Made by a program: the position numbers and the translations under genes. A stretch of 64,000 nucleotides of DNA, taken from NCBI RefSeq assembly GCF_003143515.1, contig NZ_CP029343.1, positions 1,426,001 to 1,490,000 of the forward strand, written 5' to 3'. The notes beneath the pieces were generated by a model. It was given only the letters and a program-made list of their open reading frames with translations. It did no database searches and had not been told where the DNA came from. This document shows positions 37,349 through 58,976 of this stretch, piece by piece; position 1 is the first letter of the stretch, and every line of letters starts with the position of its first letter. This stretch comes from Massilia oculi. GTDB lineage: Bacteria; Pseudomonadota; Gammaproteobacteria; Burkholderiales; Burkholderiaceae_D.

Positions 37349-37938
37349 ATCAGGTCGCCCGGCGCCAGGGTCACGAAGCGCGACAGGTAGGCGATCACGT
37401 CGGCGATCGGCCAGATCAGTTCATTGAGGTTGCCTTCCTGGCGCAGGGCGCCGTTCACTTCCAGCCAGATGCGGCCTTCAGCCGGGTGGCCCACTTCGCT
37501 CACCGGATGCAGGGCGCTGATTGGGGCCGAGGCGTCGAAGCCCTTGGCCATGTCCCATGGGCGGCCGGTGTCCTTGGCCACCGCCTGCAGGTCGCGCCGG
37601 GTCAGGTCCAGGCCCACGCCATAGCCCCACACCAGGTCGAGCGCGCTGGCCGGGTCGACGTTGGCGCCGCCTGCGCCCAGCGCCACCACCAGTTCGATCT
37701 CGTGGTGCAGGTCGTCGGTCGACGGCGGATACGGCACCGCGCCGCTGGCCGGCACCACGGCGTCGGCCGGCTTGGTGAAGAAGAACGGCGGTTCGCGGTT
37801 CGGGTCGCTCCCCATCTCGCGCGCGTGCGAGGCGTAGTTGCGGCCGACGCAGAACACGCGGCGCACCGGGAAACGGCTGCTCGAGCCGCTGACGGCCACC
37901 GAAGGGGTGGCCGGTGCGGTGATGACGAATTCGGACAT
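37249..37938 (-). CDS. fumarylacetoacetate hydrolase family protein
   Basis: A 229-residue FAH-fold enzyme. FCVGRNYASHAREMG is the family start, and FFFTKPADAVV is conserved. The metal-binding acids are in DDLHHEIELVVALG and WGYGVGLDLTRRDLQ. The C-terminal SGTPSGVAALEPGDRV is also typical. Relatives are acylpyruvases, oxaloacetate decarboxylases or 2-keto-acid hydratases. Human FAHD1-like acylpyruvase is the closest type by length. I start at ATG 37938, with AAAGGA five bases before it. Confidence 0.88.
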   Translation of the reverse strand: MSEFVITAPATPSVAVSGSSSRFPVRRVFCVGRNYASHAREMGSDPNREPPFFFTKPADAVVPASGAVPYPPSTDDLHHEIELVVALGAGGANVDPASALDLVWGYGVGLDLTRRDLQAVAKDTGRPWDMAKGFDASAPISALHPVSEVGHPAEGRIWLEVNGALRQEGNLNELIWPIADVIAYLSRFVTLAPGDLIYSGTPSGVAALEPGDRVRGGVDGVDTFELEIR

Positions 37939-38016
37939 GCTCATCCTTTCATGGAGGAAAGCATGATGATACTCCCGCCGCCGCTAGCCGTGGTCACGGG
38001 CAATATCCCGGGAAAT

Positions 38017-43451: not shown

Positions 43452-44971
43452 TGACAGCCCTCCCCTGCGATCACGTGCAGCACCGAGCTGTCGTCCAGCT
43501 CGCCGCGGCGGTACTCGCCGCAGGCCTTGCGGTCGCGCATGACGACGATGCGGTCGGACACGCGCAGCACCTCGGGCAGTTCGGACGAGATGAACAGGAT
43601 GGCCATGCCCTTGCGGCACAGCGTGGTGACGTAATCCATGATTTCCTGCTTTGCGCGCACGTCGATGCCGCGGGTGGGTTCGTCGAGGATCATCAGCTTC
43701 GGTTCGGTGGCCAGCCAGCGCGCCAGCAGCACTTTTTGCTGGTTGCCGCCCGAGAGCGTGCCGATCGGCGTTTCGATGGACGCCGTCTTGATCCCCAGTT
43801 GCCTGACGTAGTGATCCGCCAGCTCCTGCTGGCGCCGCAGCGGAATCGCACGCAGCAATCCCTGGCGCGCCTGCAGCGCCAGGATCAGGTTTTCGCGTAC
43901 CGACAGGTCCAGGATCGCGCCCTCGTGCTTGCGGTCTTCGGAGCAGAAGCCGATGCCCTCGCGGATCGCGTCGCGCGGAGTAGCGAAGATGGTCGCACGG
44001 CCGCCGATCTCGATCGCGCCATCGTCCGCCCGGTCGGCGCCGAACAGCAGGCGCGCGGTCTCGGTGCGGCCGGAACCCAGCAGGCCGGCAAGGCCCAGCA
44101 ACTCGCCCTGCCTGATGCTCAGGTCGAGCGGCGCCAGCACGCCACGGCGCGCGAGTTCTCTTGCTTGCAGGAGGGCCGGGCCGGCCTGGTGGCCTTCTTC
44201 GATGCCGGTCTGCGGCTGTTCCTGGGTGTCGGCGGCCACCCCGATCATCTTGTTCACCAGGGCCAGGCGCGACAGCTCGCTGCACAGGTATTCGCCTTCG
44301 CGCTCGCCATTGCGCATCACCGTGATGCGGTCCGAAATCGCGTAGGTCTGTTCGAGGAAGTGGGTGACGAACAGGATCGCCATGCCCTGCTCGCGCAGGT
44401 TGCTCAACACCGAGAACAGCAGCTGCACCTCGGCCTCGTCGAGGCTGGACGTGGGTTCGTCGAGGATCAGCACATTGGCCGAGATGTTCAGCGCACGGGC
44501 GATGGCCACCATCTGCTGGATCGCCAGAGGATAGCTGGCCAGCGGCCGGCCGACGTCGACGTTCACCTGCAGGCGAGTCAGGAGCTCCTGCGACAGGCGA
44601 CGCATGCGGCGCCAGTCGATCATGCCGAAGCGGCGCGGATAGCGGCCGATGAAGATGTTCTCGGCGACCGACAGGTTCGGGCACAGGTTCACTTCCTGGT
44701 AGACCGTGCTGATGCCGAGTTCCTGGGCGTGCTGGGTCGAACGCGGTTCGATCCGCTCGCCATCGAGCACGATGCTGCCGCGTTCCGGCTGGTAGACGCC
44801 CGTCAGCACCTTGATCAGGGTGGACTTGCCGGCCCCGTTCTGGCCCATCAAGGTATGGACTTCGCCCGGATACAGGCGCAGGCCCGCATCCGACAGCGCT
44901 TTCACGCCCGGGAACTGTTTGTGGATGCCGGTGACGTCGAGCACCGGCAGCGCCGTGGTCGAGGCGGGCAT
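43448..44971 (-). CDS. ytfR: sugar ABC transporter ATP-binding protein (YtfR-like, duplicated ATPase)
   Basis: A 507-residue protein with two ATPase domains. The first has Walker A GQNGAGKSTL, signature SYPLAIQQMVAIARAL and Walker B VLILDEPTSSLD. The second lacks a full Walker A (GLLGSGRTET) but has LSGGNQQKVLLARWL and MILDEPTRGID. This is normal for sugar importers of the RbsA/MglA/YtfR group. The start ATG 44971 is 7 bp after the binding-protein stop. Confidence 0.93.
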   Translation of the reverse strand: MPASTTALPVLDVTGIHKQFPGVKALSDAGLRLYPGEVHTLMGQNGAGKSTLIKVLTGVYQPERGSIVLDGERIEPRSTQHAQELGISTVYQEVNLCPNLSVAENIFIGRYPRRFGMIDWRRMRRLSQELLTRLQVNVDVGRPLASYPLAIQQMVAIARALNISANVLILDEPTSSLDEAEVQLLFSVLSNLREQGMAILFVTHFLEQTYAISDRITVMRNGEREGEYLCSELSRLALVNKMIGVAADTQEQPQTGIEEGHQAGPALLQARELARRGVLAPLDLSIRQGELLGLAGLLGSGRTETARLLFGADRADDGAIEIGGRATIFATPRDAIREGIGFCSEDRKHEGAILDLSVRENLILALQARQGLLRAIPLRRQQELADHYVRQLGIKTASIETPIGTLSGGNQQKVLLARWLATEPKLMILDEPTRGIDVRAKQEIMDYVTTLCRKGMAILFISSELPEVLRVSDRIVVMRDRKACGEYRRGELDDSSVLHVIAGEGCQ

Positions 44972-44978
44972 GGCCGCC

Positions 44979-45953
44979 TCAATATTTACGGTTCGGGAAT
45001 TCCTTGGCTGCGACTTCGGCCGGGAAGACACCTTCTTGCACCACGACGCGCTTCAAGACCGGCTTGCCGGCCTTGACCGCCCTGGCCGCTTCCATCAGCT
45101 GCGGGCCGAGCAGCGGATTGCATTCGACGGTCACGTTCAGCTTGCCCTGCAACATGGCCTCGAACGCACCGCGCACGCCGTCGATCGACACGACCAGGAT
45201 GTCCTTGCCCGGCTTGAGGCCGGCTTCCTCGATCGCCTGGATGGCGCCGATCGCCATGTCGTCGTTGTGCGCGTACAGCACGGTGATGTTCTTGCCCTCG
45301 GACTTGAGGAAGGCTTCCATCACCTCCTTGCCCTTGGCGCGGGTGAAGTCGCCGGTCTGGGAGCGGATGATCTTCAGGCGCGGCTCGGTTTTCATGACTT
45401 CCGCGAAGCCGGCCTTGCGGTCGATAGCCGGCGCCGAACCCACGGTGCCCTGCAGCTCGACGATGTTATAGGCGCGGGTCGGGTGCTTCTTCGCGTGTTC
45501 GACCAGCCAGCGCGCGGCGCGGCGGCCCTCTTCCACGAAATCGGAACCGAGGAAGGTGACGTACAGCGACTCGTCGCTGACCTTGACGCCGCGGTCGGTC
45601 AGGATGACGGGGATATTGGCGCGCCTGGCTTCGCGCAGCACGGTATCCCAGCCGGATTCCACGACCGGGGAGAAGGCGATGACGTCGACGCGCTGCGCGA
45701 TGAAGGAGCGGATCGCCTTGACCTGGTTTTCCTGGCGCTGCTGGGCGTCGGCGAACTTGAGGTTGATGCCGGCCTTGTTGGCGGCGTCCTTGATCGAGGC
45801 GGTGTTGGCGGTGCGCCATTCGCTTTCGGCGCCGACTTGCGAGAAGCCAATGGTGAGGGGCTTGGCGGCGAAGGCCGCGTTCAGCGGCACAACGGTTGCG
45901 GCCACAGGCGCGGCAACTGCGACGCCCAGGAAATTCCTGCGGGTGAGGCTCAT
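44979..45953 (-). CDS. ytfQ: sugar-binding protein (YtfQ-like) with a twin-arginine signal
   Basis: A 324-residue periplasmic binding protein of the RbsB/YtfQ family (LTIGFSQVGAESEWRTANTASIKDAA). Its signal peptide begins MSLTRRNFLGVAVAAPVA, a Tat-type motif, and would be exported folded. Sugar-contact segments RSFIAQRVDVIAFSPVVESGWD and AHNDDMAIGAIQAIEEAG are present. Likely ligands are galactose, galactofuranose or L-arabinose, given the catabolic genes under the same promoter element. It is first in its operon. CGGAGA lies 7 bp before the start. Confidence 0.92.
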   Translation of the reverse strand: MSLTRRNFLGVAVAAPVAATVVPLNAAFAAKPLTIGFSQVGAESEWRTANTASIKDAANKAGINLKFADAQQRQENQVKAIRSFIAQRVDVIAFSPVVESGWDTVLREARRANIPVILTDRGVKVSDESLYVTFLGSDFVEEGRRAARWLVEHAKKHPTRAYNIVELQGTVGSAPAIDRKAGFAEVMKTEPRLKIIRSQTGDFTRAKGKEVMEAFLKSEGKNITVLYAHNDDMAIGAIQAIEEAGLKPGKDILVVSIDGVRGAFEAMLQGKLNVTVECNPLLGPQLMEAARAVKAGKPVLKRVVVQEGVFPAEVAAKEFPNRKY

Positions 45954-46008
45954 CACTTTGTCTCCGGTATTGTTGTTCTGCAATCCTAGGACAAAGTGAG
46001 ATACTGAT

Positions 46009-46051
46009 CCAATCAATTTTTTGAGCGTTGCGATATATATTTGAATATCTA
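46009..46051 (-). promoter_or_regulatory. regulon element A, upstream of the transporter operon
   Basis: CCAATCA at 46009-46015, exactly 14 bp, then GCGATAT-N8-ATATCTA (46030-46051), a weaker form of the dyad TCGATAC-N8-GTATCGA. Positions of agreement are five of seven in each half. The operon is read leftward from here, its start codon being 56 bp from CCAATCA. The AGATA sequence ten bases before CCAATCA is shared with element B. Confidence 0.75.
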
Positions 46052-46097
46052 TCACGACCTGCCCCCGGACCGGCGGGGCACGTCGTTCGATCGCGGC

Positions 46098-47075
46098 TCA
46101 GGAATATGCGGAGCTCATATTCAACACCCCATTCGCCCCGCGCGGGAAGAACCCGCCCATGGTCACCGACTCCCTGGTCAGGTAAACGATATTGAGCACA
46201 TCGCCTGGCGTGCGGCTGAAGGCGATGCCGTCCTTATCCAGCGGTACGATGTTCGACACCGTCGCGTCCGAAGCGTGGACGATTCCCTGGTCCACATCGC
46301 TCGTCCCGTCGAGGCTGTCGCGCGCATCCGAGATCGCGCCGGCCGCAGTGCGCAGCGATGGCGTGCTCAATCCCTTCGAGTACAGCACCGTGCGGACCAG
46401 GCCCGCATGATAGGCTTCGGCCGCCAGGATGCCGGCCGCCGCCTCGAGGAAGGTCTTGTTCTGGATGAGTGGCGACGCGCCCTTGTAGGCGGTCACGCCG
46501 ACGTCTTCGAAGATGAAGGCGCCGAGCAGGAAGTTTTCGTCGCTGGCATACGGGTCGAAGGCGACGCCCGGGCCAACCAGACCGGCGGCCCGGGCCGCGC
46601 TCGAGAATGCGCCATTCGGATCGGTGCCGCCAATGTCCAGCGCCGGCTGGGCCACCGCCGCAGCGCCAAGCGCGCCGCGCAGGAAGGCGACGTGGGCGAT
46701 CTCGTCCTGCGCGATTTCCTTCGCATACTGGGCCACCAGCGGATCCTTGAACTGGACCTGGCGGCCACCGGTCACCGCGCCTTGCGTCCCGGCACCGTTC
46801 AGCAGATTGGCCGGAAGGCCGATGCCAAGCGCCGCATAAGAATAGAACTGCGCTTCCAGATACTCGAGATTGAGCGCGAAATTGAGGATGTCGACATCGG
46901 TCGGCGTCGCAGCCTGCGCGATGGCGTCCTTGACCGAGCCGCCGCAGGCGCTCAGGAAAGTACCGCCCACCATGCCGACGCTGATGCCGCCGACATTCTT
47001 GAAGAAGGAACGCCGTTGTTCGAGCTTTTGCTTGCGTGATTCGAGTAGTGCCAAGGTCACATTCGTGTCTGTCAT
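46098..47075 (-). CDS. exported ferritin-like domain protein
   Basis: A 325-residue protein of the Ferritin_2/desiccation-related type. The N-terminus RRSFFKNVGGISVGMVGGTFLSACGG combines a Tat-like RR motif with a lipobox-like LSAC. The four-helix core carries Glu/His metal-ligand candidates: LNLEYLEAQFYSYAA, IAQDEIAHVAFLRG, FEDVGVTAYKGA and AAEAYHAGLVR. Some plant and Deinococcus relatives are desiccation-induced. The ECF sigma/anti-sigma pair is divergent from it, 240 bp away, and may control it. Confidence 0.85.
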   Translation of the reverse strand: MTDTNVTLALLESRKQKLEQRRSFFKNVGGISVGMVGGTFLSACGGSVKDAIAQAATPTDVDILNFALNLEYLEAQFYSYAALGIGLPANLLNGAGTQGAVTGGRQVQFKDPLVAQYAKEIAQDEIAHVAFLRGALGAAAVAQPALDIGGTDPNGAFSSAARAAGLVGPGVAFDPYASDENFLLGAFIFEDVGVTAYKGASPLIQNKTFLEAAAGILAAEAYHAGLVRTVLYSKGLSTPSLRTAAGAISDARDSLDGTSDVDQGIVHASDATVSNIVPLDKDGIAFSRTPGDVLNIVYLTRESVTMGGFFPRGANGVLNMSSAYS

Positions 47076-47315
47076 GGTAGTTCTCCTGTTGGAATAACGT
47101 CAAGAAACCGGGCCAGCGCGTGCTCGAAAATTTCAATCAGGAAATCTGCTTGAAACCGGCGACACAACGCATACAGCTTGTACTCGCGAAGGCTGCGTTC
47201 GGTTTCAACTATTTGAGGACGCGCATGGTCTCTCGCGTGCGCGTGCTGGGCGATATCGCGTGATATTGTCGAAACGAGCAGCTCTCCGTCCAATGCGCTA
47301 ACTTCAAGGTGCCAG

Positions 47316-47903
47316 GTGCCAGACTCCAACCCGATCGATCCCGAACAGCTGAGGGGCTGGCTACAGGCAGCGGCGCGGCAAGATGGGCGGGCTTTCCGCC
47401 TGCTCTACGACGCCACATCGCCAAGACTGTTTGGCTACGCGTTGCGCATATTGGGTAAACGGGAGTTGGCAGAGGAAGCCGTGCAGGATGGATTTGTCGC
47501 GATCTGGCATGGCGCGGCCAGTTATCAGGCACAGCTGGCCGCACCCATGACGTGGATGACCACCATCGTGCGCAACAAGGCGCTCAACCTGCTGCGCAGA
47601 CATGCGCACGACGCCGGCATCGATGGCCCGGTGTTCGACGAGTGCGTCATGGCCGCACTGCACGATCCGCAAGCAACGCCTGTCGATGCCTTGCTCATCA
47701 GCCGCGAAGCCAAGGCGCTGGCCCATTGCATGTCGACGCTCGGGGGCGCCCACCGGCAAGTCGTGGGGCTGGCATTCTTCCATGACCTGTCGCACAGCGA
47801 GGTGGCGCAGCAGATGGCCATACCCATCGGCACCGTCAAGACCTGGATCCGGCGCAGCCTCGAACGTCTCAAGACCTGCATGGCGAAAGGCGAACGGCCA
47901 TGA
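47316..47903 (+). CDS. ECF sigma factor (RpoE/SigK-like)
   Basis: 195 residues starting at GTG 47316 with AAGGTG upstream. Region 2 is AEEAVQDGFVAIWHGAASYQAQLAAPMTWMTTIVRNKALNLLRR. Region 4 is HRQVVGLAFFHDLSHSEVAQQMAIPIGTVKTWIRRSLERLK. It is paired with the next gene, an anti-sigma factor, as in SigK/RskA systems, which suggests it is held inactive until an envelope or oxidative signal. Confidence 0.92.
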   Translation: MPDSNPIDPEQLRGWLQAAARQDGRAFRLLYDATSPRLFGYALRILGKRELAEEAVQDGFVAIWHGAASYQAQLAAPMTWMTTIVRNKALNLLRRHAHDAGIDGPVFDECVMAALHDPQATPVDALLISREAKALAHCMSTLGGAHRQVVGLAFFHDLSHSEVAQQMAIPIGTVKTWIRRSLERLKTCMAKGERP

Positions 47904-48604
47904 AGCTGCGCGACCATCCCGTCCTGTCCGACAAACTGGCCGCCGAATACGTGCTGGGTACGCTCAAGGGAGGCGCGCGGCGGCGCTTCGAGACCCATCT
48001 GCGCGAGGACCCGGCGTTGCGCCGCCTGGTGAACGAATGGGAAGAACGCCTGGCGCCGATGGCCGAGTTCTCGCCCCCGCAACTTGCTCCCGAGCGGGTC
48101 TGGCTGTCCATCGAACGACGGCTCGGATTGCAGCGCCGTCACGCCACCTGGCAATTCTGGCGCAGCGAATCGCTGGTCTTCTGGCGCACGCTTGGACTGG
48201 CCTCGATGGGCTGCGCACTGCTTCTGGTGGGCGTGATCAGTTCGTCGCTGCTGGACCGTCCACAGGTCGATTATCTCGCCACGCTCCAGGACGACAAGGC
48301 CCGCACCGCGCTGCTGCTGACGGGCGACGCACGCCGCGAGATCCTGACCGTGCGTCTGGTCGAGCCCGCCCCAGTCGCCGCCGATCGCAGCCTCCAGCTG
48401 TGGGCCGTGCCGAAGCAAGGCAATCCGCGTTCGATCGGCGTGCTGTCCGACCGCGGCGTGATCGAACTCGGTTTGAGCCGTACCGCGATCGGCGACGATG
48501 TGGCGCTGCTTGCCGTGTCGCTGGAGCCGCGCGGAGGCTCGCCGAATCCGGACGGGCCGACGGGGCCGATCCTCTACAAAGGCAACTGGGTGCGGATTCT
48601 GTAG
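47900..48604 (+). CDS. anti-sigma factor (RskA-like)
   Basis: 234 residues. The N-terminal anti-sigma domain is LAAEYVLGTLKGGARRRFETHLREDPALRRLVNEWEERLAPMAE. One membrane helix lies at about 95-114 (LGLASMGCALLLVGVISSSLL). The C-terminal periplasmic RskA domain is LQLWAVPKQGNPRSIGVL. It is translationally coupled to the sigma gene (ATGA) and binds it at the membrane. Confidence 0.92.
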   Translation: MKLRDHPVLSDKLAAEYVLGTLKGGARRRFETHLREDPALRRLVNEWEERLAPMAEFSPPQLAPERVWLSIERRLGLQRRHATWQFWRSESLVFWRTLGLASMGCALLLVGVISSSLLDRPQVDYLATLQDDKARTALLLTGDARREILTVRLVEPAPVAADRSLQLWAVPKQGNPRSIGVLSDRGVIELGLSRTAIGDDVALLAVSLEPRGGSPNPDGPTGPILYKGNWVRIL

Positions 48605-48677
48605 CGGCCTTGGCGCAGCAAACGTAATCCAGCCACCCGGCCAGTCACCGAACCCGGCCTGGCGACGAAACGCACGC

Positions 48678-48999
48678 TCAGCTTGCCCCGGGCGGCCTGC
48701 CGCATCGACGCGCGAATCGGATAATCCACGGCACCAGCCCGGGCGCCGTGAACGTCGGCGGCTTGCCGGCCACCGGCTTGAAGCGGGCGTTGAAACCGGT
48801 CGAGTCGCTGACGAACATCGGCGCCGGCGCCGGCGCCAACGGGCAGGTCGGCCCCGAGGCGATCTGGCCCGTGCGCGAGTCATCGGCCAGGTAACACAGC
48901 TTGTCGTCACCGGGCATGCGCGTATGCGCCGCCAGCACGACCGGCCCATGCGGCATGCGCCGCACCGGTCAGCGCGGCCAGTGCAGCAGATACCGCCAT
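48678..48999 (-). pseudogene. small exported protein, probably frameshifted
   Basis: ATG 48999 opens a plausible signal peptide (MAVSAALAALTGAAHA) but that frame stops after about 30 codons. From about base 48955 another frame continues with VVLAAHTRMPGDDKLCYLADDSRTGQIASGPTCPLAPAPAPMF, 95 codons from GTG 48965 to a stop at 48678. The two parts look like one secreted protein interrupted by an indel. The end is also uncertain. It sits between the anti-sigma gene and the GH51 gene, 34 bp after the latter's stop. It is not a recognised family. The rest of 48605-49033 shows nothing else. Confidence 0.4.
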
Positions 49000-49033
49000 C
49001 GCTCGAGCCGCGATCGCGCGCGCGGCCCTTACT

Positions 49034-50581
49034 TCACGCCTGGACGGCGAAGACCATCACGGCCTTGGCCGGCACCTTGATCGTCAGCTTGCCATCGGCC
49101 GCCTTCGCACTGAACGGCGCCGGCTTGACCGCCTGCGGCTGCTCGAAGGTGTTGTGGGCGTCCATCTTCTCCGCGGTCAGTATCTGGCCCGTCACGCTGC
49201 CCACGTCCAGGCCGGCCACATTCAGCGCCACGTCGCTGGCGCGGGTCGGGTGCGTGTTGACGAGGGCGACGTAGACCTTGCCATCCTTGCCGCGCGCCGC
49301 CGTGGCACTGATGCCCGGCACCGCCTTGCCATCGCTCGAATAGGCCACGTCGTTGTCCACGGCCACCGGCAGCCTGGTCGCATCCTGGAACGGGATGTAC
49401 ATCTTGTAGGCGTGGTAGGTTGGCGTCAGCAGCATCTTGTCCTTGTCGGTGATGATCATCGCCTGCAGCACGTTGACCATCTGCGCGATATTCGTCATGC
49501 GCACCCGCTCGGCGTACTCATGGAAGATGTTGAAGTTGAGCGCGGCCACGACCGCGTCGCGGATCGTGTTTCGCTGGAACAGGAAGCCCGGATTGGTGCC
49601 CGGCTCCACGTCGTACCAGGTGCCCCATTCGTCGACGTAGAAGCCGATCTTCTTCTGCGGATCGTTCTTGTCGAGGACGGCGACATTCTGCCTGATGTAC
49701 TGATCCATGCGCAGCGTCTGTTGCATCGTCGAGAACCATTCCGACTCAGGGAAGGCCGTCGCTGCGCCCTTCTTCTCCCACACACCCGTCGGCAAGGTGT
49801 AGTAATGGAAGCTGATGCCATCGGTGCCGCGCGCGGCCTCGCGGCTCAGGACGTCGGTCCACTGGGTATCGTTGCCATGGCCGCCGCTGGCGACGATCTT
49901 CGGCCGCGCGCCCGGCGGCGTCTTCAGGAAGGTCGCGTAATGGTTGTACAGGTGGGCGTAATACTCCGGTTTCATGTTGCCGCCACAGCCCCAGGCCTCG
50001 TTGCCGATGCCGAAATAGGCGACTTTATAGGGCTCCTTGCGGCCGTTCTTGCGCCGCAGTTCGGCCAGCGACGACTTGGTGCTTGATGTCATGTACTCGA
50101 GCCATTCGGCCATCTCCTGCGGGGTGCCGGAACCGAGATTGCCGTTGACGTAGGCTTCGGTGCCAAGCAGCTCGACCAGGTCGAAGAACTCATGGGTGCC
50201 GACCGCGTTGTCCTCGGCCACGCCGCCCCAGTGGGTATTTACCTTGACCGGGCGCTTGTTGCGCGCGCCGATGCCGTCACGCCAGTGATACTCGTCGGCG
50301 AAGCAGCCGCCCGGCCAGCGCACCAGCGGCACCTTCAGTTCCTTCAGCGCTCCCACCACGTCGTTGCGCCAGCCGCGGGTATTCGGAATCCTCGAATCCG
50401 GCCCCACCCACAAGCCCTCGTAGATGCCGGTGCCGAGGTGTTCGGCGAACTGGCCGTACACGTTCTTGTTGATGACCGGACCCGGCTTGGTGGTGTCGAT
50501 CGACACGCTCACCTGGGCGAAGGCCAGCGCCGGCAAGGCGGCAAGACTGCATGCGAGGATGATGGGTTTGAGTGCTTTCAC
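49034..50581 (-). CDS. exported alpha-L-arabinofuranosidase, GH51
   Basis: 515 residues with a signal peptide (KPIILACSLAALPALAFA). It releases terminal L-arabinofuranose from arabinan and arabinoxylan. The GH51 barrel shows VYGQFAEHLGTGIYEGLWVG, LVRWPGGCFADEYHWRDGIG, acid/base Glu195 in IGNEAWGCGGN and nucleophile Glu318 in YVDEWGTWY. The start is GTG 50581 with AGGAGA upstream. It is the last gene of the operon that begins with the IlvD-type dehydratase. Confidence 0.93.
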   Translation of the reverse strand: MKALKPIILACSLAALPALAFAQVSVSIDTTKPGPVINKNVYGQFAEHLGTGIYEGLWVGPDSRIPNTRGWRNDVVGALKELKVPLVRWPGGCFADEYHWRDGIGARNKRPVKVNTHWGGVAEDNAVGTHEFFDLVELLGTEAYVNGNLGSGTPQEMAEWLEYMTSSTKSSLAELRRKNGRKEPYKVAYFGIGNEAWGCGGNMKPEYYAHLYNHYATFLKTPPGARPKIVASGGHGNDTQWTDVLSREAARGTDGISFHYYTLPTGVWEKKGAATAFPESEWFSTMQQTLRMDQYIRQNVAVLDKNDPQKKIGFYVDEWGTWYDVEPGTNPGFLFQRNTIRDAVVAALNFNIFHEYAERVRMTNIAQMVNVLQAMIITDKDKMLLTPTYHAYKMYIPFQDATRLPVAVDNDVAYSSDGKAVPGISATAARGKDGKVYVALVNTHPTRASDVALNVAGLDVGSVTGQILTAEKMDAHNTFEQPQAVKPAPFSAKAADGKLTIKVPAKAVMVFAVQA

Positions 50582-50606
50582 TGTCGTCTCCTGGTTTTAG
50601 TAAGTC

Positions 50607-52517
50607 TTATTTGAATACCGCGACGAAGCCGCCGCGTGGTTTGATGCCGATGCTGGTCTTGCCGGCCTTGATCGGGGTCTGGACGAACGCGCGCTCGCCA
50701 TCGCCGTCGGTGGTCAAGGTTCCACTGCGTCCCGCGATAAACGAGAGGTCGAGGTCGACACTGCGCTCTTCATTGTCGGCATTGAATCCGGCCACATACC
50801 AGCTGTCGCCGCTTTTTCTCGCGATGACCGCATGGCGGCCCGGGTAGCCGTCGATGAAACGCACGTCGTCCCAGCTGCGCGGCAGGTCGCGCAGCAGGTT
50901 CTTCACGTAATCGGGAACGCCGGCCATGCCTTCGGGCCGCTCGGCGAAGTGCTGGATTCCGGACAGGAACAGCACCGCCTCGGCCAGCTCGAAGCCGTTG
51001 CGGGTGACGCGTCTGATCCTGGGGATGTCGCCGAATACCAGCGGCGTGTAGTCCATCGGGTCGAACAGGTTGCGGGAAAACGGCAGCATGGCCGCGTGCG
51101 GCGGCATCGCATCCTGGTCCTTTTGGTCGAAGGTGGTGAACTCGAAGCCCTTCACCGCCTCCACCGTCATCAGGTTCGGGAAGGTGCGCGACCAGCCGCG
51201 CGGCAAGGTGGCGCCGTGGAAGTTCACCAGCAGGCCGGCATCGGCCGCGTCCTGCAGCATGTCGACGTAATAGGCGATCATCGACTTGCCGTCGCCGGCG
51301 AAGAAGTCGACCTTGACGCCCTTGACGCCCATGTCGCGCAGGCGCGCGAACTCGCGCGCACGCGCTGCGGCGGTGAGCAGCGCCCCTTTCGGAGTATATG
51401 GCGTCTTGTTCCAGGCGCCGGACGAGTTGTACCAGACCAGGATGCCGATCTTCTTCGCGGCGGCATAGGCGACCAGCTCGCGCATGCGCCCAAAGCCGAT
51501 CTTGCGGTCCCAGTCGGCATCGACCAGCGTGTAATCCCACCCCATGTCGGCGGCGTAGTCCACGAAGCGCTTCTGGGTGTCGATACAGGTGCCGTCGTCC
51601 TTGAGCAGCGCCCAGCTCCAGGATGCGTGGCCGGGCTGGACCTTGGCCTTGTCGAAGGCGATCGCAGGCGCCGCGAGATCGGTCCCGAGCGTCGATTCGA
51701 CCAGCGTGCGCAGGCTGCCCAGTGCGACGATGCGCCACGGCGTGAGCAGGTCGCCCGTCGACTCGGCCAGCAGCGCGCCGTTCGTGAACACCTCCGGCGG
51801 GGCCGGGACGTCGAGGCGGTAGACGCCGCCGCGCGAATCGGTGTGCAGGCGCGAGGCGTGGAAGCTGCCGTCCAGGTTCGCCTCCGTGAGCGCGACCCAG
51901 GTGTCGCCGCTGCGCAGCAGCGCCGGGAAGACCCAGCCGGCGCCGAGCGTGGACGGGGTGCCGACCGGGATCTCGCGCTGGTAGTGTTCTTCGTAGGAGG
52001 GATTCGTGTTCGACCAGCCGGTCTGGGCGACCGCCATCGGCTGCAGCCAGGCTTTCGTGGACTTGTCGAAGGCGAAGCCCGTGGTTTCGCGTACGAACTT
52101 GAGGTTCTTGCCGGCGACGCGGTAGCGGAAGGCGACGCCGTCGTTCGAGACGCGGAAGGTCACGTCCATCGCCTGGCCCTGGGCGTTGCGCACGGTATGG
52201 GTCTGTTCGTTGGCGCGGTAGGTGATGTGGCGCTTCTTGGCGGTGGCCAGTTCGTAGCGGTCTTCGATCGGCTTGACCGGGGAGCTGGCGGCCAGCGTCA
52301 AGCCCTGAGTCAGGTCGGCGCCTTGCACGGCGATGCCCAGGCTTGACGGCAGGATGACGGGATTGCCGTCGCGGGTGACGGCATAGGTCAGCGCGCCCGC
52401 CGGCGACACGTTGACGTCGACCGCGATGTGCCGGTCAGGGCTGGTGAGCGGTGCGGCATGCGCTTGCGCGCAGAGTGTTCCAACGACGAGCAATGCGGTG
52501 AGGCGGAATGCGGTCAT
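50607..52517 (-). CDS. exported glycoside hydrolase family 97
   Basis: 636 residues with a signal peptide (FRLTALLVVGTLCAQAHA). GH97 contains alpha-glucosidases and retaining alpha-galactosidases. The barrel segments SWSWALLKDDGTCIDTQKRFVDYAADMGWDY and GVKGVKVDFFAGDGKSMIAYY contain a candidate catalytic Asp, the retaining type. LVNFHGATLPRGWSRTFPN and EAVKGFEF are also seen. In this arabinose/galactose setting it may cleave alpha-galactosides or beta-L-arabinopyranosides. The start has GGAG 8 bp upstream and is 97 bp after the SDR stop. Confidence 0.88.
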   Translation of the reverse strand: MTAFRLTALLVVGTLCAQAHAAPLTSPDRHIAVDVNVSPAGALTYAVTRDGNPVILPSSLGIAVQGADLTQGLTLAASSPVKPIEDRYELATAKKRHITYRANEQTHTVRNAQGQAMDVTFRVSNDGVAFRYRVAGKNLKFVRETTGFAFDKSTKAWLQPMAVAQTGWSNTNPSYEEHYQREIPVGTPSTLGAGWVFPALLRSGDTWVALTEANLDGSFHASRLHTDSRGGVYRLDVPAPPEVFTNGALLAESTGDLLTPWRIVALGSLRTLVESTLGTDLAAPAIAFDKAKVQPGHASWSWALLKDDGTCIDTQKRFVDYAADMGWDYTLVDADWDRKIGFGRMRELVAYAAAKKIGILVWYNSSGAWNKTPYTPKGALLTAAARAREFARLRDMGVKGVKVDFFAGDGKSMIAYYVDMLQDAADAGLLVNFHGATLPRGWSRTFPNLMTVEAVKGFEFTTFDQKDQDAMPPHAAMLPFSRNLFDPMDYTPLVFGDIPRIRRVTRNGFELAEAVLFLSGIQHFAERPEGMAGVPDYVKNLLRDLPRSWDDVRFIDGYPGRHAVIARKSGDSWYVAGFNADNEERSVDLDLSFIAGRSGTLTTDGDGERAFVQTPIKAGKTSIGIKPRGGFVAVFK

Positions 52518-52613
52518 GACGGTCTCCAATGGTCCTCGTCGCCACGCGAGCAGCAACGACGGTAAGGGACAGACAACTACGGCGTGAATGAATCGTGCGG
52601 ACGTGCGAATTGG

Positions 52614-53381
52614 TCAGGTCCAGCCGGCATCCACGACAAAATCCTGCGCCGTGCACATCCTGCTGTCGTCGGCGCCGAGGAACAGCACCATGCGCGCGAC
52701 GTCGTCAGGCATCAGCTTGCCCGGCAGGCACTGCGCCTTCCTGATCTCGACTTCCGCCGCGGCGTCGACCCACAGATCCACCTGGCGCTGGGTCATCACC
52801 CAACCCGGCGTGACCGTATTGACGCGCACTCCGAACGGTCCCAGGTCGCGCGCCAGGCTGCGCGTGAGGCCGATCACGGCCGCCTTGGTGGTGGCGTAGA
52901 CCGGATATCCGGCGCCCTTTGCATGCCACGACATCGAGCTGAAATTGATGATGGCGCCGCCGCCCTTCTTCCTCATTCCCGGCAGGACCGCCTGGCAGGT
53001 GAAGAACATCGGACGCTGGTTGATGGCGATGCGCTCGTTCCAGTAGTCGAGCGAGACGTCCTGGATGTCGTGGCGCTGGTCGTTCGCGGCATTGTTGACG
53101 AGGACGTCGAAGTCGCCCAGCTGCGCGGCCAGTTCCGCCATCGTGCGCTGCAGCGCCGGGATGTCGGTGATGTCGCAATGGCGGTAGACCGGCGCATGCG
53201 TCCCCGCATCCGCCAGCCGCGCGCACAGGGCCTCGCTGGCCTGACGCGCGATGTCGACGAAGGCGACCACCGCACCCTGCTCCACGAAGGCCTGAACGAT
53301 CGCTTCGCCGATGCCGGTGCCGCCTCCCGTCACGAATACCCGCTTGTCCCGCAGGCTGGGGTAGTTCCCCATTTGTTCCAT
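52614..53381 (-). CDS. short-chain sugar dehydrogenase (probable arabinose/galactose dehydrogenase)
   Basis: A classical SDR of 255 residues: TGGGTGIGEAIVQAF, VDIARQASE, NNAANDQRHD, catalytic Ser in INFSSMSWH, and Tyr/Lys in YPVYATTKAAV. It probably oxidises an aldose at C1 to the lactone with NAD(P)+. The substrate is inferred from neighbours: lactonase (56420), sugar-acid dehydratase (54481) and AraD1 (53452) follow the same oxidative route. ATG 53381 is preferred because GGAG lies 8 bp before it; other in-frame ATGs are at 53393 and 53372. Confidence 0.83.
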   Translation of the reverse strand: MEQMGNYPSLRDKRVFVTGGGTGIGEAIVQAFVEQGAVVAFVDIARQASEALCARLADAGTHAPVYRHCDITDIPALQRTMAELAAQLGDFDVLVNNAANDQRHDIQDVSLDYWNERIAINQRPMFFTCQAVLPGMRKKGGGAIINFSSMSWHAKGAGYPVYATTKAAVIGLTRSLARDLGPFGVRVNTVTPGWVMTQRQVDLWVDAAAEVEIRKAQCLPGKLMPDDVARMVLFLGADDSRMCTAQDFVVDAGWT

Positions 53382-53451
53382 GCTTGTCTCCATCTTTACC
53401 CATTCTGCCGAGGCCTCTGCGGGCCTCGCATCTGCAGACCTGCCTACGGCA

Positions 53452-54444
53452 TCATAAGCGCCTGACCTTCACATACGGGGCGTCATGCACGGCCAGGCGA
53501 TTGCGCAGGGCCGGGCCAAAGGCCGGCGCTTCGACCTCGAAGATCTCGCCTGCCTTGACCTGGACGCCATCGGCAAAGCTCAGGGTCGCTGTACCGAAAA
53601 AATGCACGTGCACGTCGCCGGCGCGCTTGAACAGGCCATATTTGAAATGGTGGTATTCGAGGTTTTCCAGCGTGTGCGACATATTCTGCTCGCCGCTGAC
53701 GAAGGCCTTCTCCCAGCGCACCTGGCCGTCCAGGCCGATGACGCGCGACACGCCCTCCACGTGGGCCGGCAGCTCGCCGACCAGCAGCGCGGGGCCGACA
53801 CCGCAGTTGCGCAGCTTGGAATGCGCCAGGTAGAGGTAGTTCTGGCGTTCGGTGACGTGGTCCGAGAACTCGTTGCCGATCGCATAGCCCAGGCGGTAGG
53901 GCTGGCCGGCGTCGCCGATCAGGTACAGGCCGGCGATCTCCGGCTCCTCGCCGCCGTCGAGCGAGAAGGCCGGCATGTCGAGGTCCTGGCCGCTGCCACG
54001 CACGATCGAGCCGTCGCCCTTGTAGAACCATTCCGGCTGCACACCGGGCGTGCCCGGCGCCGGCTTGCCGCCTTCGACGCCCAGGCGGAACATCTTCATG
54101 CTGTCGCTCAGGGCCTCGATGTCGCCGCCGATCTTCTTGTGCATGCTGTCGCGCGTGTCGGCGCTGCCCAGGTGGGTCAGGCCGGTGCCGGTGACGTAGC
54201 AATGGGCAGGGTCGGGATGGTCGACCGGGGGCAGGATGCGACCGGCCCGGGCGAGGTCGTCGTAGTCGACGCGGCCGGCGCCGGCCGCCGCATCGGCGAG
54301 TGCGGCCAGCCCCTTGCCTTGCGCGATCGCGGCGCGCGCCAGTTCCAGCGTGGTGGCGTAACCGTCGAGGACGCGGATGGTGGCGTCGTTCAGGATGCCG
54401 ACGCGGCGTTCATTCGATTCGTTCAGAAATTGGACGAGCAGCAT
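53452..54444 (-). CDS. AraD1/GguC family protein (FAH superfamily)
   Basis: A 330-residue FAH-type protein with FLNESNERRVGIL, YVTGTGLTHLGSADTRDSMHKK, GEEPEIAGLYLIGDAGQPYRLGYAIGNEFSDHVTER and VHFFGTATLSFADGV. GguC is encoded beside the ChvE/GguAB sugar transporter in Agrobacterium. The AraD1 group is predicted to dehydrate 2-keto-3-deoxy-L-arabinonate. This role fits the position directly after the dehydratase. GAGGAGG precedes the start. Confidence 0.85.
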   Translation of the reverse strand: MLLVQFLNESNERRVGILNDATIRVLDGYATTLELARAAIAQGKGLAALADAAAGAGRVDYDDLARAGRILPPVDHPDPAHCYVTGTGLTHLGSADTRDSMHKKIGGDIEALSDSMKMFRLGVEGGKPAPGTPGVQPEWFYKGDGSIVRGSGQDLDMPAFSLDGGEEPEIAGLYLIGDAGQPYRLGYAIGNEFSDHVTERQNYLYLAHSKLRNCGVGPALLVGELPAHVEGVSRVIGLDGQVRWEKAFVSGEQNMSHTLENLEYHHFKYGLFKRAGDVHVHFFGTATLSFADGVQVKAGEIFEVEAPAFGPALRNRLAVHDAPYVKVRRL

Positions 54445-54480
54445 GGTTCGGGCCTCCTCTGTTTTATGGTTCCCATCGAC

Positions 54481-56223
54481 TCAGTGGGAATGCTTCGGCA
54501 CCGCCGACCCGCGACAGCCCACCAGAAAGTCGAAGTCGCACCCCTCATCGGCCTGCATCACGTGGTCCAGGTACAGCCGCTGGTAACCGCCATGCTGCAC
54601 GGGCGCGGCTTTCCCGGCCCGATCCGCCAGCCGCGCGCGGATCTGTTCATCGCTCAGTTCCACATTGAGCAGGCCGGCATGGCAGTCGAGCTGGATCATG
54701 TCGCCGTCCTGCACGATGCCCAGCGGGCCGCCGGCCATCGCTTCCGGCGCCACGTGCAGCACCACGGTGCCGTAGGCGGTGCCGCTCATGCGCGCGTCCG
54801 AGATGCGCACCATGTCGGTGATGCCCTTGGCCAGCAGCTTGGGCGGCAGGCCCATATTGCCCACTTCAGCCATGCCCGGATAGCCCTTCGGCCCGCAGTT
54901 CTTCATCAACAGCACGCAGTTCTCGTCCACGTCCAGGTCGGGATCGAGGATCCGCGCCTTGTAGTGGTCGAAGTCCTCGAACACCACCGCGCGGCCGCGG
55001 TGCCGCATCAGGTGCGGCGACGCCGCCGACGGTTTGAGCACCGCGCCGCGCGGCGCCAGGTTTCCGCGCAGGATGCAGATGCCGCCGTCCGCGATCAGCG
55101 GATTGTCCAGCTGGCGCACCACCTCGTCGTTGTAGATCGGCGCGTCAAAGCAGTTTTCCCACAGCGACTTGCCGTTGACGGTCAATGCGTCCCGGTTCGG
55201 AATCAGGCCGCCCTCGCCCAGGCGCCGGATCACCGCCGGCAGGCCGCCGGCGTAATAGAACTCTTCCATCAGGTAGCGGCCCGACGGCAGCAGGTCCACC
55301 ACGGTCGGGGTGCCCTTGCCGATGCGGGTCCAGTCCTCGAGTTCGAGCGGCACGCCGACGCGGCCGGCGATCGCCTTCAGGTGGATCACGGCATTGGTCG
55401 AACCGCCGATCGCCGCATTCACGCGGATCGCATTCTCGAAGTTCTCGCGCTTGAGGATCCTGGAGATGCGCAGGTCTTCGTGCACCATCTCGACGATGCG
55501 GATGCCCGACATATGGGCCAGCACGTAGCGCCGCGCATCGACGGCGGGGATCGCCGCGTTGTGCGGCAGCGAGGTGCCCAGCGCCTCGGCCATGCAGGCC
55601 ATCGTGGATGCCGTGCCCATGGTGTTGCAGGTGCCGGCCGAACGCGAGTGCCCCGCTTCGGCCGACAGGAATTCGTGCATCGTGATGGCGCCGGCCTTGG
55701 CCTGCTCGTGCAGCTGCCAGACGGCGGTGCCGGAACCGATGTCCTTGCCGTTCAGTTTACCGTTGAGCATCGGGCCGCCGGTGACGACGATGGTGGGCAG
55801 GTCGACGCTGGCCGCCCCCATCAGCAGGGCCGGCGTGGTCTTGTCGCAGCCGACCAGCAGCACCACGGCGTCCATCGGATTGCCGCGGATGGACTCCTCG
55901 ACGTCCATCGACGCCAGGTTACGGGTCAGCATGGCGGTCGGACGCAGGTTCGATTCGCCGTTCGAGAACACGGGGAATTCGACCGGGAAGCCGCCGGCTT
56001 CCAGGATGCCGCGCTTGACGTGTTCGGCCAGCTTGCGGAAATGGGCGTTGCAGGGAGTGAGTTCGGACCAGGTATTGCAGATGCCGATGATCGGTTTACC
56101 CTGGAATTCGTGGTCGGGAATGCCCTGGTTCTTCATCCAGCTGCGGTACATGAAACCGTTCTTGTCTTGCGTGCCGAACCACGCCGCCGAGCGCAACGGC
56201 GTCTTTTTCTGTTCCCCGGACAT
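54481..56223 (-). CDS. IlvD/Edd family sugar-acid dehydratase (arabinonate/galactonate type)
   Basis: An iron-sulfur dehydratase of 580 residues. Cluster cysteines lie in ICNTWSELTPCNAHFR, VGCDKTTPALLMGA and GTCNTMGTASTMACMAEALG. SDARMSGTAYGTVVLHVAPE is a hallmark of the sugar-acid branch rather than dihydroxy-acid dehydratase. It removes water from L-arabinonate or D-galactonate to give the 2-keto-3-deoxy acid. The ATG 56223 has AGGAG 7 bp upstream. It is first in the operon dehydratase, AraD1, SDR, GH97, GH51, behind regulon element B. Confidence 0.92.
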   Translation of the reverse strand: MSGEQKKTPLRSAAWFGTQDKNGFMYRSWMKNQGIPDHEFQGKPIIGICNTWSELTPCNAHFRKLAEHVKRGILEAGGFPVEFPVFSNGESNLRPTAMLTRNLASMDVEESIRGNPMDAVVLLVGCDKTTPALLMGAASVDLPTIVVTGGPMLNGKLNGKDIGSGTAVWQLHEQAKAGAITMHEFLSAEAGHSRSAGTCNTMGTASTMACMAEALGTSLPHNAAIPAVDARRYVLAHMSGIRIVEMVHEDLRISRILKRENFENAIRVNAAIGGSTNAVIHLKAIAGRVGVPLELEDWTRIGKGTPTVVDLLPSGRYLMEEFYYAGGLPAVIRRLGEGGLIPNRDALTVNGKSLWENCFDAPIYNDEVVRQLDNPLIADGGICILRGNLAPRGAVLKPSAASPHLMRHRGRAVVFEDFDHYKARILDPDLDVDENCVLLMKNCGPKGYPGMAEVGNMGLPPKLLAKGITDMVRISDARMSGTAYGTVVLHVAPEAMAGGPLGIVQDGDMIQLDCHAGLLNVELSDEQIRARLADRAGKAAPVQHGGYQRLYLDHVMQADEGCDFDFLVGCRGSAVPKHSH

Positions 56224-56322
56224 GCAGTTCTCCTGTCTGTTCTTGGCTGGGCGAGGCGTCGAGCCCGGGCCCATGTCTCTTTGATGACTGAGAGCCATGG
56301 TAAAGACCAGCCAGATAACTTT

Positions 56323-56365
56323 CCAATCACATTTTTGGCGACATCGATACCGTTTTTAGTATCGA
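56323..56365 (-). promoter_or_regulatory. regulon element B, upstream of the dehydratase operon
   Basis: CCAATCA at 56323-56329, 14 bp, then TCGATAC-N8-GTATCGA (56344-56365), a perfect 7-bp dyad. It is 100 bp before the dehydratase start, read leftward. It contains a T-N11-A LysR-type core within ATAC-N8-GTAT. Confidence 0.82.
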
Positions 56366-56419
56366 CATACGCCTTGGATCGGCAGGAAATGGGGCGGCGC
56401 CGGCCGCCCAACGTGCGGG

Positions 56420-57301
56420 TCAGCGGTGGAGAAAGCGTGCTTCGGGCAGGCCGCGCACGTCCATCGGCTGGTGGAATAGCGCGCCCGACAGCGGCGCCGC
56501 CTCCCGGTCGGACGCCGTCATGCCCACGTGGGCGCTAGTGACGAACAAGGTCGATAGATCCGGCCCGCCGAACGCCGGGCAGCTCGGCTGCGGCGCGGCC
56601 AGCGGGATCACCCGATCGAGCCTGCCGCTCGGTGCGAAGCGCATCACCTGCCCCGCGCCCCAGCGCGTGCTCCACAGATAGCCCTCGGCATCGACCGTGG
56701 AGCCATCCGGTTCGCCCGGCGCGGCATCCGCCGCCACGAAGGTATGCACCCGCCCGACTTCGGCGCTGCAGGGGTTGTAGTCGGCGTACAGGATGGCCTT
56801 CTCTTGCGAGTCGGCGAAATACATGCGGCGGCCGTCGGGGCTGAAGCAGATGCTGTTGGCGATCGCTGCATGGGGCAGCGGCAGCGACTCGAGCGACAGG
56901 TCGAGGTTGAGGCGATAGAAGCCGCCCACCGCGCGTTTCGGATTCTCGTCCTGGTTGAACATGCCGAACACGAAGCGTCCCTGGCGGTCGCAGCGACCGT
57001 CGTTCAGGCGGGTCGACGGATTATCCGCTTCGACGTCGACGATGCGCGTGACCTTGCCGGTCGAGAAAGTAAAGAAGGCCAGGCCGGACGCAAGCCCCAG
57101 CAGCAGGCGGTCATCGCTGCCTGTGAGCGCGAAGCTGCACAGGCGCTCCGGCATGCGCCAGGAGACGGTGCGCCCGCTGCACGGCGAATGCGACCACAGG
57201 GTGGCGGCCGGGATGTCGGTCCACAGCAGCCGGCCCGTGCGTTCGCACCACAGCACGCATTCGCCGAGCTCGTGCCCGGCGTCCAGCAGCGCGTCCATCA
57301 T
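56420..57301 (-). CDS. SMP-30/gluconolactonase family lactonase
   Basis: A 293-residue beta-propeller lactonase. Metal-ligand motifs are LGECVLWCERTGRLLWTDI (Glu), RLNDGRCDRQGRFVFGMF (Asn/Asp), ANSICFSPDGRRMYFADS (Asn) and PDGSTVDAEGYLW (Asp). It hydrolyses the aldonolactone formed by the sugar dehydrogenase. The start ATG 57301 overlaps the aldose epimerase stop (ATGA). No signal peptide. Confidence 0.9.
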   Translation of the reverse strand: MMDALLDAGHELGECVLWCERTGRLLWTDIPAATLWSHSPCSGRTVSWRMPERLCSFALTGSDDRLLLGLASGLAFFTFSTGKVTRIVDVEADNPSTRLNDGRCDRQGRFVFGMFNQDENPKRAVGGFYRLNLDLSLESLPLPHAAIANSICFSPDGRRMYFADSQEKAILYADYNPCSAEVGRVHTFVAADAAPGEPDGSTVDAEGYLWSTRWGAGQVMRFAPSGRLDRVIPLAAPQPSCPAFGGPDLSTLFVTSAHVGMTASDREAAPLSGALFHQPMDVRGLPEARFLHR

Positions 57302-58377
57302 GCGCCCGGCTCCACCAGGAAACGGAAGCGCGACTCGGTCTGGTACACCTGCCCCGGACGCAGGATCGCGTTCGGGAATTGCGGCTGGTTCGGCGAATCC
57401 GGGAAGTGCTGCGGCTCCAGGCAAAAGCCGCTGCGGTACTGGTAGGTCCTGCCCTTGCCAGCGAGCGAGCCGTCGAGGAAGTTACCGCTGTAGAACTGGA
57501 CGCCCGGCTCCTCGGTCCACAATTCCAGCACGCGCCCCGAGCCCGGATCGTACGCGCGCGCCGCCCGGCTCAAGGCCTTGTCCCGCGGCTTGTTGAGCAC
57601 GAAGTTATGGTCGTAGCCGCCGCCATGGCGCAGCTGCTTGTCCGCCTGGCCGATACGCTCGCCGATCGGACGCGGCGTGCGGAAGTCGAATGGCGTGCCC
57701 GTCACCGGCGTCAGTTCGCCGGTCGGGATCGATTCGGCATCGATGGCCACGAAAGTGTCGGCCTCGATGCTCAGGACGTGGCCGAGGATGTCGCCGTCGC
57801 CGGCCAGGTTGAAATAGCTGTGCTGGGTCAGGTTGACGGGCGTCGCCTTGTCGGTGACGGCGTGGAAGGACACGACCAGCTCGTTATCGTCGTTGAGCGT
57901 GTAGGTGACGGTCGCATCGAGGTTGCCTGGATAGCCCATCTCGCCATCGACGCTGCGATACTGCAGGCGCAGGCTGGCACCGATGACCGTGGCCTCCCAT
58001 TTGACGCGGTCGAAGCCATCCGGCCCGCCATGCAGGTGGTTGCTGCCGTTATTGACCGGCAGTTTCACTTCATGTCCGTCGAGCGTGAAGCGTCCATGCC
58101 GGATGCGGTTGCCGTAGCGGCCGATCAGCGCGCCAATATACGGGCTGTCCGTCCTGTAGGGCTCAAGCGAACCGAAACCCAGTACCACGTCGGCGAAGTT
58201 GCCGTCGCGGTCGGGCGCATGCAGCTCGGTGATGACGCCGCCATAGTCGATGATCTTCGCCACCATGCCGTTGGCATTGGTCAGCGTGAACTGGGTGATG
58301 GCCCTGCCGTCGGGCAGCTGGCCGAATGGCGCTTGCGTGATACCGGTTTGCACGTTGTTCGAATCCTCAATCGACAC
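57298..58377 (-). CDS. galM: aldose 1-epimerase
   Basis: 359 residues. Interconverts alpha and beta anomers of galactose, glucose or arabinose. The GalM core is IDYGGVITELHAPDRDG, GALIGRYGNRIRHGRFTLDG, LHGGPDGFDRVKW, the catalytic His in LTQHSYFNLAG, and catalytic Glu near VEPGA/FCLEPQHFPDSPN. The start is GTG 58377, directly after the upstream TGA (58381-58379), so it depends on coupling with the GH43 fragment upstream. Confidence 0.92.
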   Translation of the reverse strand: MSIEDSNNVQTGITQAPFGQLPDGRAITQFTLTNANGMVAKIIDYGGVITELHAPDRDGNFADVVLGFGSLEPYRTDSPYIGALIGRYGNRIRHGRFTLDGHEVKLPVNNGSNHLHGGPDGFDRVKWEATVIGASLRLQYRSVDGEMGYPGNLDATVTYTLNDDNELVVSFHAVTDKATPVNLTQHSYFNLAGDGDILGHVLSIEADTFVAIDAESIPTGELTPVTGTPFDFRTPRPIGERIGQADKQLRHGGGYDHNFVLNKPRDKALSRAARAYDPGSGRVLELWTEEPGVQFYSGNFLDGSLAGKGRTYQYRSGFCLEPQHFPDSPNQPQFPNAILRPGQVYQTESRFRFLVEPGA

Positions 58378-58378
58378 A

Positions 58379-58789
58379 TCAATAAGTGGAAGGACGGCCG
58401 GACACCGGCATGCCCTGTTCGTCCCGGCGCGACGGCTTCACGAAGGTGTGGCGGTCCGAAAAGACCAGCATGACGGTGTCGTCGCCTTCGGCATGGGTGA
58501 AGCTGTCGTGGCCCGGGGCATCGACGCCGTGATCGTAGCACGTGCGCAGAACGGGCTGCGCCGACTTGGTCCACGATCCTGGGCCGGGAAGGCCGGCATG
58601 CGCGACGGCCCACAGCAGGTCCATCGCGTGATTGTGGTCGGTGGCGCTGGCCGAGTAGCTGATGAAGATCCTGCCCTTGCGGCGCAACACCGATGGTCGC
58701 TCGTCGACGCGCAAGCCGACCGTCTCGCAGCCGTGTTCAGGCTTGCCGGGCAGGACCGGCTTGCCCTCGATCTGCCATCGCGTCTTCAT
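58379..58789 (-). pseudogene. C-terminal fragment of a GH43-type arabinofuranosidase
   Basis: The frame RPSVLRRKGRIFISYSASATDHNHAMDLLWAVAHAGLPGPGSWTKSAQPVL and PGHDSFTHAEGDDTVMLVFSDRH matches the second half of bacterial GH43 enzymes. There the sequence usually reads EGPAVLxRNGKIFxSYSAS and is preceded by about 180 residues forming the rest of the propeller. Those residues are missing. It is probably a truncated remnant. The start ATG 58789 has an ATGA overlap with a 12-codon frame opening at ATG 58824. A GTG at 58834 would extend it. It may now serve only to couple translation of galM. Confidence 0.7.
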
Positions 58790-58933
58790 CGGCGCGGTGC
58801 GGAGGCGGTATCCACCTGGCCCATGAATTCCCACTCCCCTTCCAGCATCTCTCCCTTCCGTCGCTATATGCCGGTATCCGGCTGTATCTATGTGCTGCCC
58901 GATAATGATGGTAGGCGGCGCATCGAGAACGTT

Positions 58934-58976
58934 CCAATCAATTTTTCTGGCGCTTCGATACCAATTTAGGTATCGA
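58934..58976 (-). promoter_or_regulatory. regulon element C, upstream of the GH43 fragment-galM-lactonase operon
   Basis: CCAATCA at 58934-58940, 14 bp, then TCGATAC-N8-GTATCGA (58955-58976); the dyad extends to TCGATACC/GGTATCGA. It has the same order, spacing and orientation as elements A and B. The 14-bp spacer also has a T tract and GGCG in B and C. Confidence 0.82.

Follow-up and report, generated by a model that had tools for sequence, protein, structure and literature searches.

The window analyzed here is a stretch of 64,000 nucleotides of Massilia oculi (contig NZ_CP029343.1, positions 1,426,001 to 1,490,000). Its minus strand carries genes for sugar uptake and oxidation, which appear to form three operons, A, B and C, as well as a gene for a LysR-type regulator (table 1). 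An initial annotation of this DNA had placed one copy of a two-part element before each operon, and the window sequence bears out all three placements and their common orientation. Sites B and C are exact copies of CCAATCA-N14-TCGATAC-N8-GTATCGA, a pattern with no match in 100 shuffles, and site A has, as had been described, five of the seven matching bases in each half-dyad. The two-part element is real and is part of a longer promoter. We argue below that the three copies very probably serve as promoters at which the LysR-type regulator of the window acts as activator.

Table 1. Sites, predicted promoter boxes and genes of the three operons (positions in the window; PWM, position weight matrix; ORF, open reading frame)
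Feature	Position	Strand	Remarks
Site A	46009..46049	-	Dyad core 46032-46049, A-tract, TGATTGG 46009-46015; PWM score 75.6
Site B	56323..56363	-	Dyad core 56346-56363, TGATTGG 56323-56329; PWM score 81.4
Site C	58934..58974	-	Dyad core 58957-58974, TGATTGG 58934-58940; PWM score 69.3
Predicted -10 box, operon A, TAGGAT	45983..45988	-	20 bp past TGATTGG; predicted start ~45976
Predicted -10 box, operon B, TACCAT	56297..56302	-	20 bp past TGATTGG; overlaps first ATG of 605-aa ORF
Predicted -10 box, operon C, TACCAT	58908..58913	-	20 bp past TGATTGG
LysR-type regulator, proposed activator	40413..41354	-	Starts 25 bp after YjfF gene; HTH_1 and LysR_substrate
YjfF-type sugar ABC permease	41380..42399	-	Matched within longer ORF 41380-43011
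YtfT-type sugar ABC permease	42357..43433	-	BPD_transp_2; name YtfT from operon place
YtfR-type sugar ABC ATPase	43448..45031 (ORF bounds)	-	669 bits, cut-off 850
YtfQ-type sugar-binding protein, first gene of operon A	44979..45953	-	392 bits, cut-off 510; start 45953 from sequence
GH51-type alpha-L-arabinofuranosidase	49034..50581	-	Profile match
GH97 family protein, alpha-galactosidase-like	50607..52556	-	Profile match
SDR sugar 1-dehydrogenase, D-xylose 1-dehydrogenase-like	52614..53393	-	340 bits, cut-off 400
GguC / AraD1 family protein	53452..54444	-	Above cut-off
IlvD/Edd dehydratase, L-arabinonate dehydratase-like	54481..56298	-	PRK13016 826 bits, cut-off 882
SMP-30/gluconolactonase-type lactonase	56420..57424	-	Profile match
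GalM-type aldose 1-epimerase	57298..58377	-	Profile match
GH43 remnant	58379..58834	-	G160 (L085) has full GH43 and MFS_2 transporter at this place

The reduced core GATAY-N8-RTATC is matched exactly by sites A, B and C and nowhere else in the window (shuffle mean 0.04). A -10-like box lies at the same distance from the element in all three sites, a feature absent from the initial description. Combining the two parts into the fixed-spacing pattern GATAY-N8-RTATC-N16-TGATTGG, on the minus strand and in the direction of the operons, gave three exact copies in the 5.84-Mb, single-contig genome, all in the window. No further place has one mismatch, three have two and 13 have three. Read backward as a control, the pattern has two forward and two reverse matches in the genome at three mismatches or fewer. 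The T-N11-A shape first attributed to the dyad was dropped after the palindrome had been counted: it is even, and its symmetric pair, bases T2 and A15, has the spacing T-N12-A.

The element recurs well beyond M. oculi. As the initial annotation had proposed, the pattern was scanned in relatives: the exact site is present in 40 of 195 genomes of the family. These belong to nine of 44 genera and contain between one and four copies each; the backward-read pattern has no exact copy in the 195 genomes. Among the family loci, 89 distinct sites score above 28 bits. As to whether such matches precede sugar genes, 87 of the 89 precede genes for carbohydrate uptake or catabolism and the other two are unlabelled. 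The genes behind the sites encode dehydratases (23), YtfQ (18), TonB receptors (13), a second sugar-binding protein (9), porins (5), MFS_2 transporters (3), SDR proteins (3) and others; 13 site rows were labelled by their own gene, typed by Pfam. Sites away from the main cluster precede genes for GH3, for a GH43 protein that carries a ricin-type domain, for alpha-L-fucosidase and for TonB receptors, one of the latter being followed by an aldehyde dehydrogenase gene. So well-defined a motif allows scanning to find regulon members far from the cluster. In an order-wide draw, an extended exact pattern was found in two of 399 genomes, both of the family. The 386 genomes from other families gave no match to it, but the pattern is so strict that it also missed G018, G026 and G028, three family genomes carrying the LysR gene and a weaker form of the site. 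Inspection by eye of more distant loci found the layout kept in Paraburkholderia L267 (LysR 52% identical; GATATC, 16 bp, TCATTAG, AAAGATATC, TAGACT at +20). In Diaphorobacter L268 (50%), GATATC, 16 bp and TCATTGG are kept, and no clear copy was seen by eye in Comamonadaceae L266 (58%).

Alignment of the sites, first 55 (two rows doubtful) and then 53 non-redundant ones, revealed the anatomy of the promoter. Four matches (L023-L026), judged coding-like by their missing A-tract and -10 box, did not enter the 53-site alignment, nor did they enter the PWM, which was built from 52 sites (38 non-redundant). If the dyad begins at column 0, GATAYC occupies columns 0-5, GRTATC 12-17, an A-tract 27-32, TGATTGG (TCATTRG in some relatives) 34-40, a GnTATC-like half-site 44-49 and TAnnAT 61-66; the dyad consensus is GATAYC-N6-GRTATC. 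In 2.74 Mb of loci there are 151 non-redundant dyads (a palindrome being counted once per strand). TBATTRG lies within 60 bp of 56 of them and its offset is identical in 53 of these 56, a count weakened as evidence by the fact that some of the loci had been retrieved by means of a pattern already containing this offset. TAnnAT was absent from all fetching patterns, so that its offset was not preset; in 38 of the 53 sites it follows TGATTGG at a distance of exactly 20 bp, and in three at 21 bp. GnTAT begins at column 44 in 18 of the 53 sites, and every other column from 18 to 99 has at most one occurrence. With T34 in all 53 sites and A47 in 36, these positions would make a second T-N12-A, 32 bp downstream of the first; sites A and B carry both bases. 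The -35 hexamer is poor (TTGGAA or similar), and the TGATTGG part overlaps both the -35 region and this putative second LysR site.

In LysR-type activator promoters, a recognition site lies around -65 and an activation site around -35. If transcription starts 7 bp past TAnnAT (predicted near 45976, 56290 and 58901 for operons A, B and C), the dyad would be centered at about -64.5, the usual position for a LysR activator; the T-N12-A spacing, found instead of T-N11-A, is a known variation. The divergent regulator genes of distant relatives are a further likeness to this class, and the weaker half-site over the -35 region may be another. The layout is nevertheless very rigid here, as judged from the dyad offset (53/56) and the -10 offset (38/53), and the T-N12-A spacing also sets it apart.

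The regulator gene of the window is probably the last gene of operon A. Its product scores above the gathering thresholds of both PF00126 and PF03466, and the nearest curated NCBIfam model is PcaQ (187.3 bits, below the cut-off of 303.8). Orthologs form a well-separated group, with scores of at least 403 bits, the next being 268, in 70 of the 195 family genomes. They are present in 39 of the 40 genomes with an exact site (Fisher test, 1.4e-20, which ignores kinship). Because kinship inflates such co-occurrence tests, we also counted within genera. In the four genera that vary (g1, g4, g12 and g32), 16 genomes have both LysR and site, three LysR only, none the site only and 21 neither (stratified p 4e-7). 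Adding g28, with three doubtful matches, and g33, with one site-only genome, gives a stratified p of 3e-7. Two of the LysR-only genomes, G003 and G182, contain near-matching sites.

The same association is found in more divergent loci. Among 32 loci with orthologs 59-70% identical, 15 were examined, and in 12 of these (L131-L141 and L260) a site scores above 28 bits, located in ten cases between the LysR gene and its divergent neighbor; in L140 and L141 the site in the divergent interval is weaker (31.0 and 24.7). Conversely, none of 27 loci of LysR paralogs (34-42% identity) scores above 10, and 25 of them contain relatives of cluster genes such as those for SDR, lactonase, ABC or GguC proteins. 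As the element is absent from these sugar-linked paralog loci, the site tracks this LysR lineage and not sugar genes generally. We looked for the pathway without the regulator by means of GguC and found no clean case: all 55 genomes with GguC at 487 bits or more also carry LysR. Residue P43 of the regulator, a proline in 16 of 16 orthologs, aligns with P30 of BenM, described in an excerpt of the cited paper as a proline contacting a conserved thymine (PMC12609908).

Several observations weigh against an activator promoter bound by this regulator. The third LysR-only genome, G094 (LysR 82%), lacks a clear site over some 52 kb (best score 24), and one of the 40 site genomes, G033, is without a LysR ortholog; its match has no A-tract and is coding-like in appearance, gene annotation aside. 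In three of the 15 examined loci, L115, L257 (64%) and L258 (59%), the stretch is siteless; for L115, the genome (G040) carries its sites at another place of the same contig, L114. A score above 25 was reached in 73 of the 80 named LysR loci (reversed matrix, 0/80), most of these matches being not independent given that the PWM was trained on the same family, so that the count shows breadth rather than providing a new test. The remaining seven are without such a site, although for one of them, L191, it probably lies just outside the stretch (compare L124). As for the promoter itself, TAnnAT is found at neither +20 nor +21 in 12 of the 53 sites, and site C is without the A of the second T-N12-A.

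The copies at L257 (G177:C34) and L258 (G144:C45) are second LysR copies, 59-64% identical and siteless, beside GH97-like or dehydratase genes. They are possibly paralogs with an altered operator.

The initial annotation had proposed that one LysR protein controls the three operons and thereby joins uptake to oxidation. Apart from its T-N11-A dyad, this proposal fits the co-occurrence of site and LysR, the within-genus counts, the sites between LysR and divergent operons in other genera, their absence from paralog loci and the position at -64.5. We propose the following mechanism. A LysR dimer would bind the dyad GATAYC-N6-GRTATC (T-N12-A) at about -64.5, the recognition site. A second dimer would occupy, 32 bp or about three helical turns downstream, a weaker activation site made of TGATTGG and the GnTATC half-site and overlapping the poor -35 box. 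The inducer-bound tetramer would then make contact with RNA polymerase in the -35 region, switching on the TAnnAT box, which the promoter alone would hardly use. In this way, the breakdown of arabinose or galactose would supply a common signal that raises uptake (A), oxidation (B) and the lactonase and epimerase of the remnant operon C. With the LysR gene apparently the last of operon A, the level of the regulator itself would also rise. Sites, geometry and the link to the LysR lineage come from comparison; from them we infer binding, the tetramer, activation as opposed to repression, the inducer and the operon structure.

Co-occurrence cannot by itself separate two regulators that travel together, and another protein, of the LacI, GntR, IclR or a similar family, might bind the dyad, LysR being a mere neighbor. 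Palindromes of the GATATC type are no hallmark of LysR proteins, and the check for a second regulator covered part of the genes of the clusters. We nevertheless consider this unlikely: a dyad at about -64.5 with a weaker half-site at about -35 is the layout of a LysR activator, the gene facing the site in the clusters of other genera is this LysR, and T-N12-A is the spacing given in an excerpt of PMC12609908 for PcaQ, the nearest curated family.

Repression by LysR is a slightly more improbable alternative to activation. Many LysR proteins bind DNA without their inducer, and from its putative second site, which lies over the -35 region, the protein could mainly block the promoters until sugar is present. 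However, the dyad at -64.5 lies upstream of the polymerase, and a poor TTGGAA-like -35 box is as expected of activator-dependent promoters. That the spacing reflects a sigma-factor promoter alone, with an incidental dyad, is hardly credible: TAnnAT and an A-tract are typical promoter parts, but the dyad is conserved together with them across genera, and the element is absent from the 27 paralog loci and, in its strict extended form, which misses true sites, from the 386 genomes of other families.

In Agrobacterium, the LysR gene gbpR lies beside sugar ABC transporter genes, as does the gene of the window, and one close relative (P0059) is named galactose-binding protein in a public record. Unlike at the GbpR and ChvE-GguAB locus, the transporter here scores best as YtfQ, YtfR and YjfF (ChvE, 39 bits against a cut-off of 460). 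The T-N12-A spacing, used according to the same excerpt by PcaQ and CutR (PMC12609908), is shared with the protocatechuate regulator PcaQ, which is also the nearest NCBIfam model. The regulator here is nonetheless far below the PcaQ cut-off and lies beside sugar genes, not pca genes. Comparable in gene content is the cluster of AraR of Halomonas, a LysR family protein with a predicted regulon of araMFGHCY and araR in the part of the source consulted; the two share a LysR regulator, an oxidative arabinose cluster, a mutarotase and an ABC transporter, which is AraFGH there and YtfQRT-YjfF here (PMC5507952). Passages of further papers deal with different pathways or with different regulators and do not describe this regulon (PMC10107873, PMC4495286, PMC6336799, PMC5002191). 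Among the matches listed in open-licence papers we found no description of it, which does not prove that none exists.

The regulon is most likely real and of the ordinary LysR-activator kind. Its best reading is that it serves the use of arabinose and galactose polymers; these specificities of the enzymes and of the transporter are read from family scores, several of them below equivalog cut-offs. On a broader proposal we are evenly divided: Massilia, Janthinobacterium, Duganella and related Burkholderiales may possess a LysR subfamily, not yet described, that commands a scattered plant-polysaccharide regulon of TonB receptors, MFS and ABC uptake systems, GH43, GH51, GH97 and GH3 enzymes, alpha-L-fucosidase and oxidative pentose genes. 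It would do so by means of a composite promoter of rigid layout, with T-N12-A at both recognition and activation sites, a weak -35 and a fixed -10, in response to one sugar or sugar-acid signal and, in this strain, with positive feedback via the transporter operon. For the use of such polymers by Massilia, Janthinobacterium, Duganella and relatives, the analysis thus names an operator, a regulator and a set of targets that can be tested.

The dehydratase ORF of operon B has its first ATG inside the predicted -10 box; therefore, translation probably starts at 56223 and not at 56298. An AGGAG-like ribosome site precedes 56223, and the model PRK06131 begins nearby, at residue 29. Between a ferritin-like gene (46098-47075) and the GH51 gene, a 474-aa ORF (47525-48949, minus strand) has no Pfam or NCBIfam match. 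Past the LysR gene lie genes for a GAF-domain hybrid histidine kinase (38017-40224) and an FAA-hydrolase family protein (37249-37944), both on the minus strand; of 60 family loci used for comparison, one (L087, 30%) shows a match to the kinase.

Operon C is, by comparison with relatives, a decayed operon whose promoter has outlived the genes it first served. The window retains GH43 pieces matching residues 339-360 and 390-548 of the 549-aa ORF of G160, and the remnant ORF begins 100 bp from site C. Downstream of the corresponding site, G160 (L085) and G108 (L090) have an MFS_2 gene, and G018 (L083) a TonB receptor and an MFS_2 gene. The decay of GH43 extends over 58379-58869 (minus strand), and in the window the upstream MFS_2 gene is gone and the promoter intact. 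Beyond operon C, on the opposite strand, lies a Gram-negative porin gene (59466-60500); in L131-L133, L135 and L260 the site itself precedes a porin gene.

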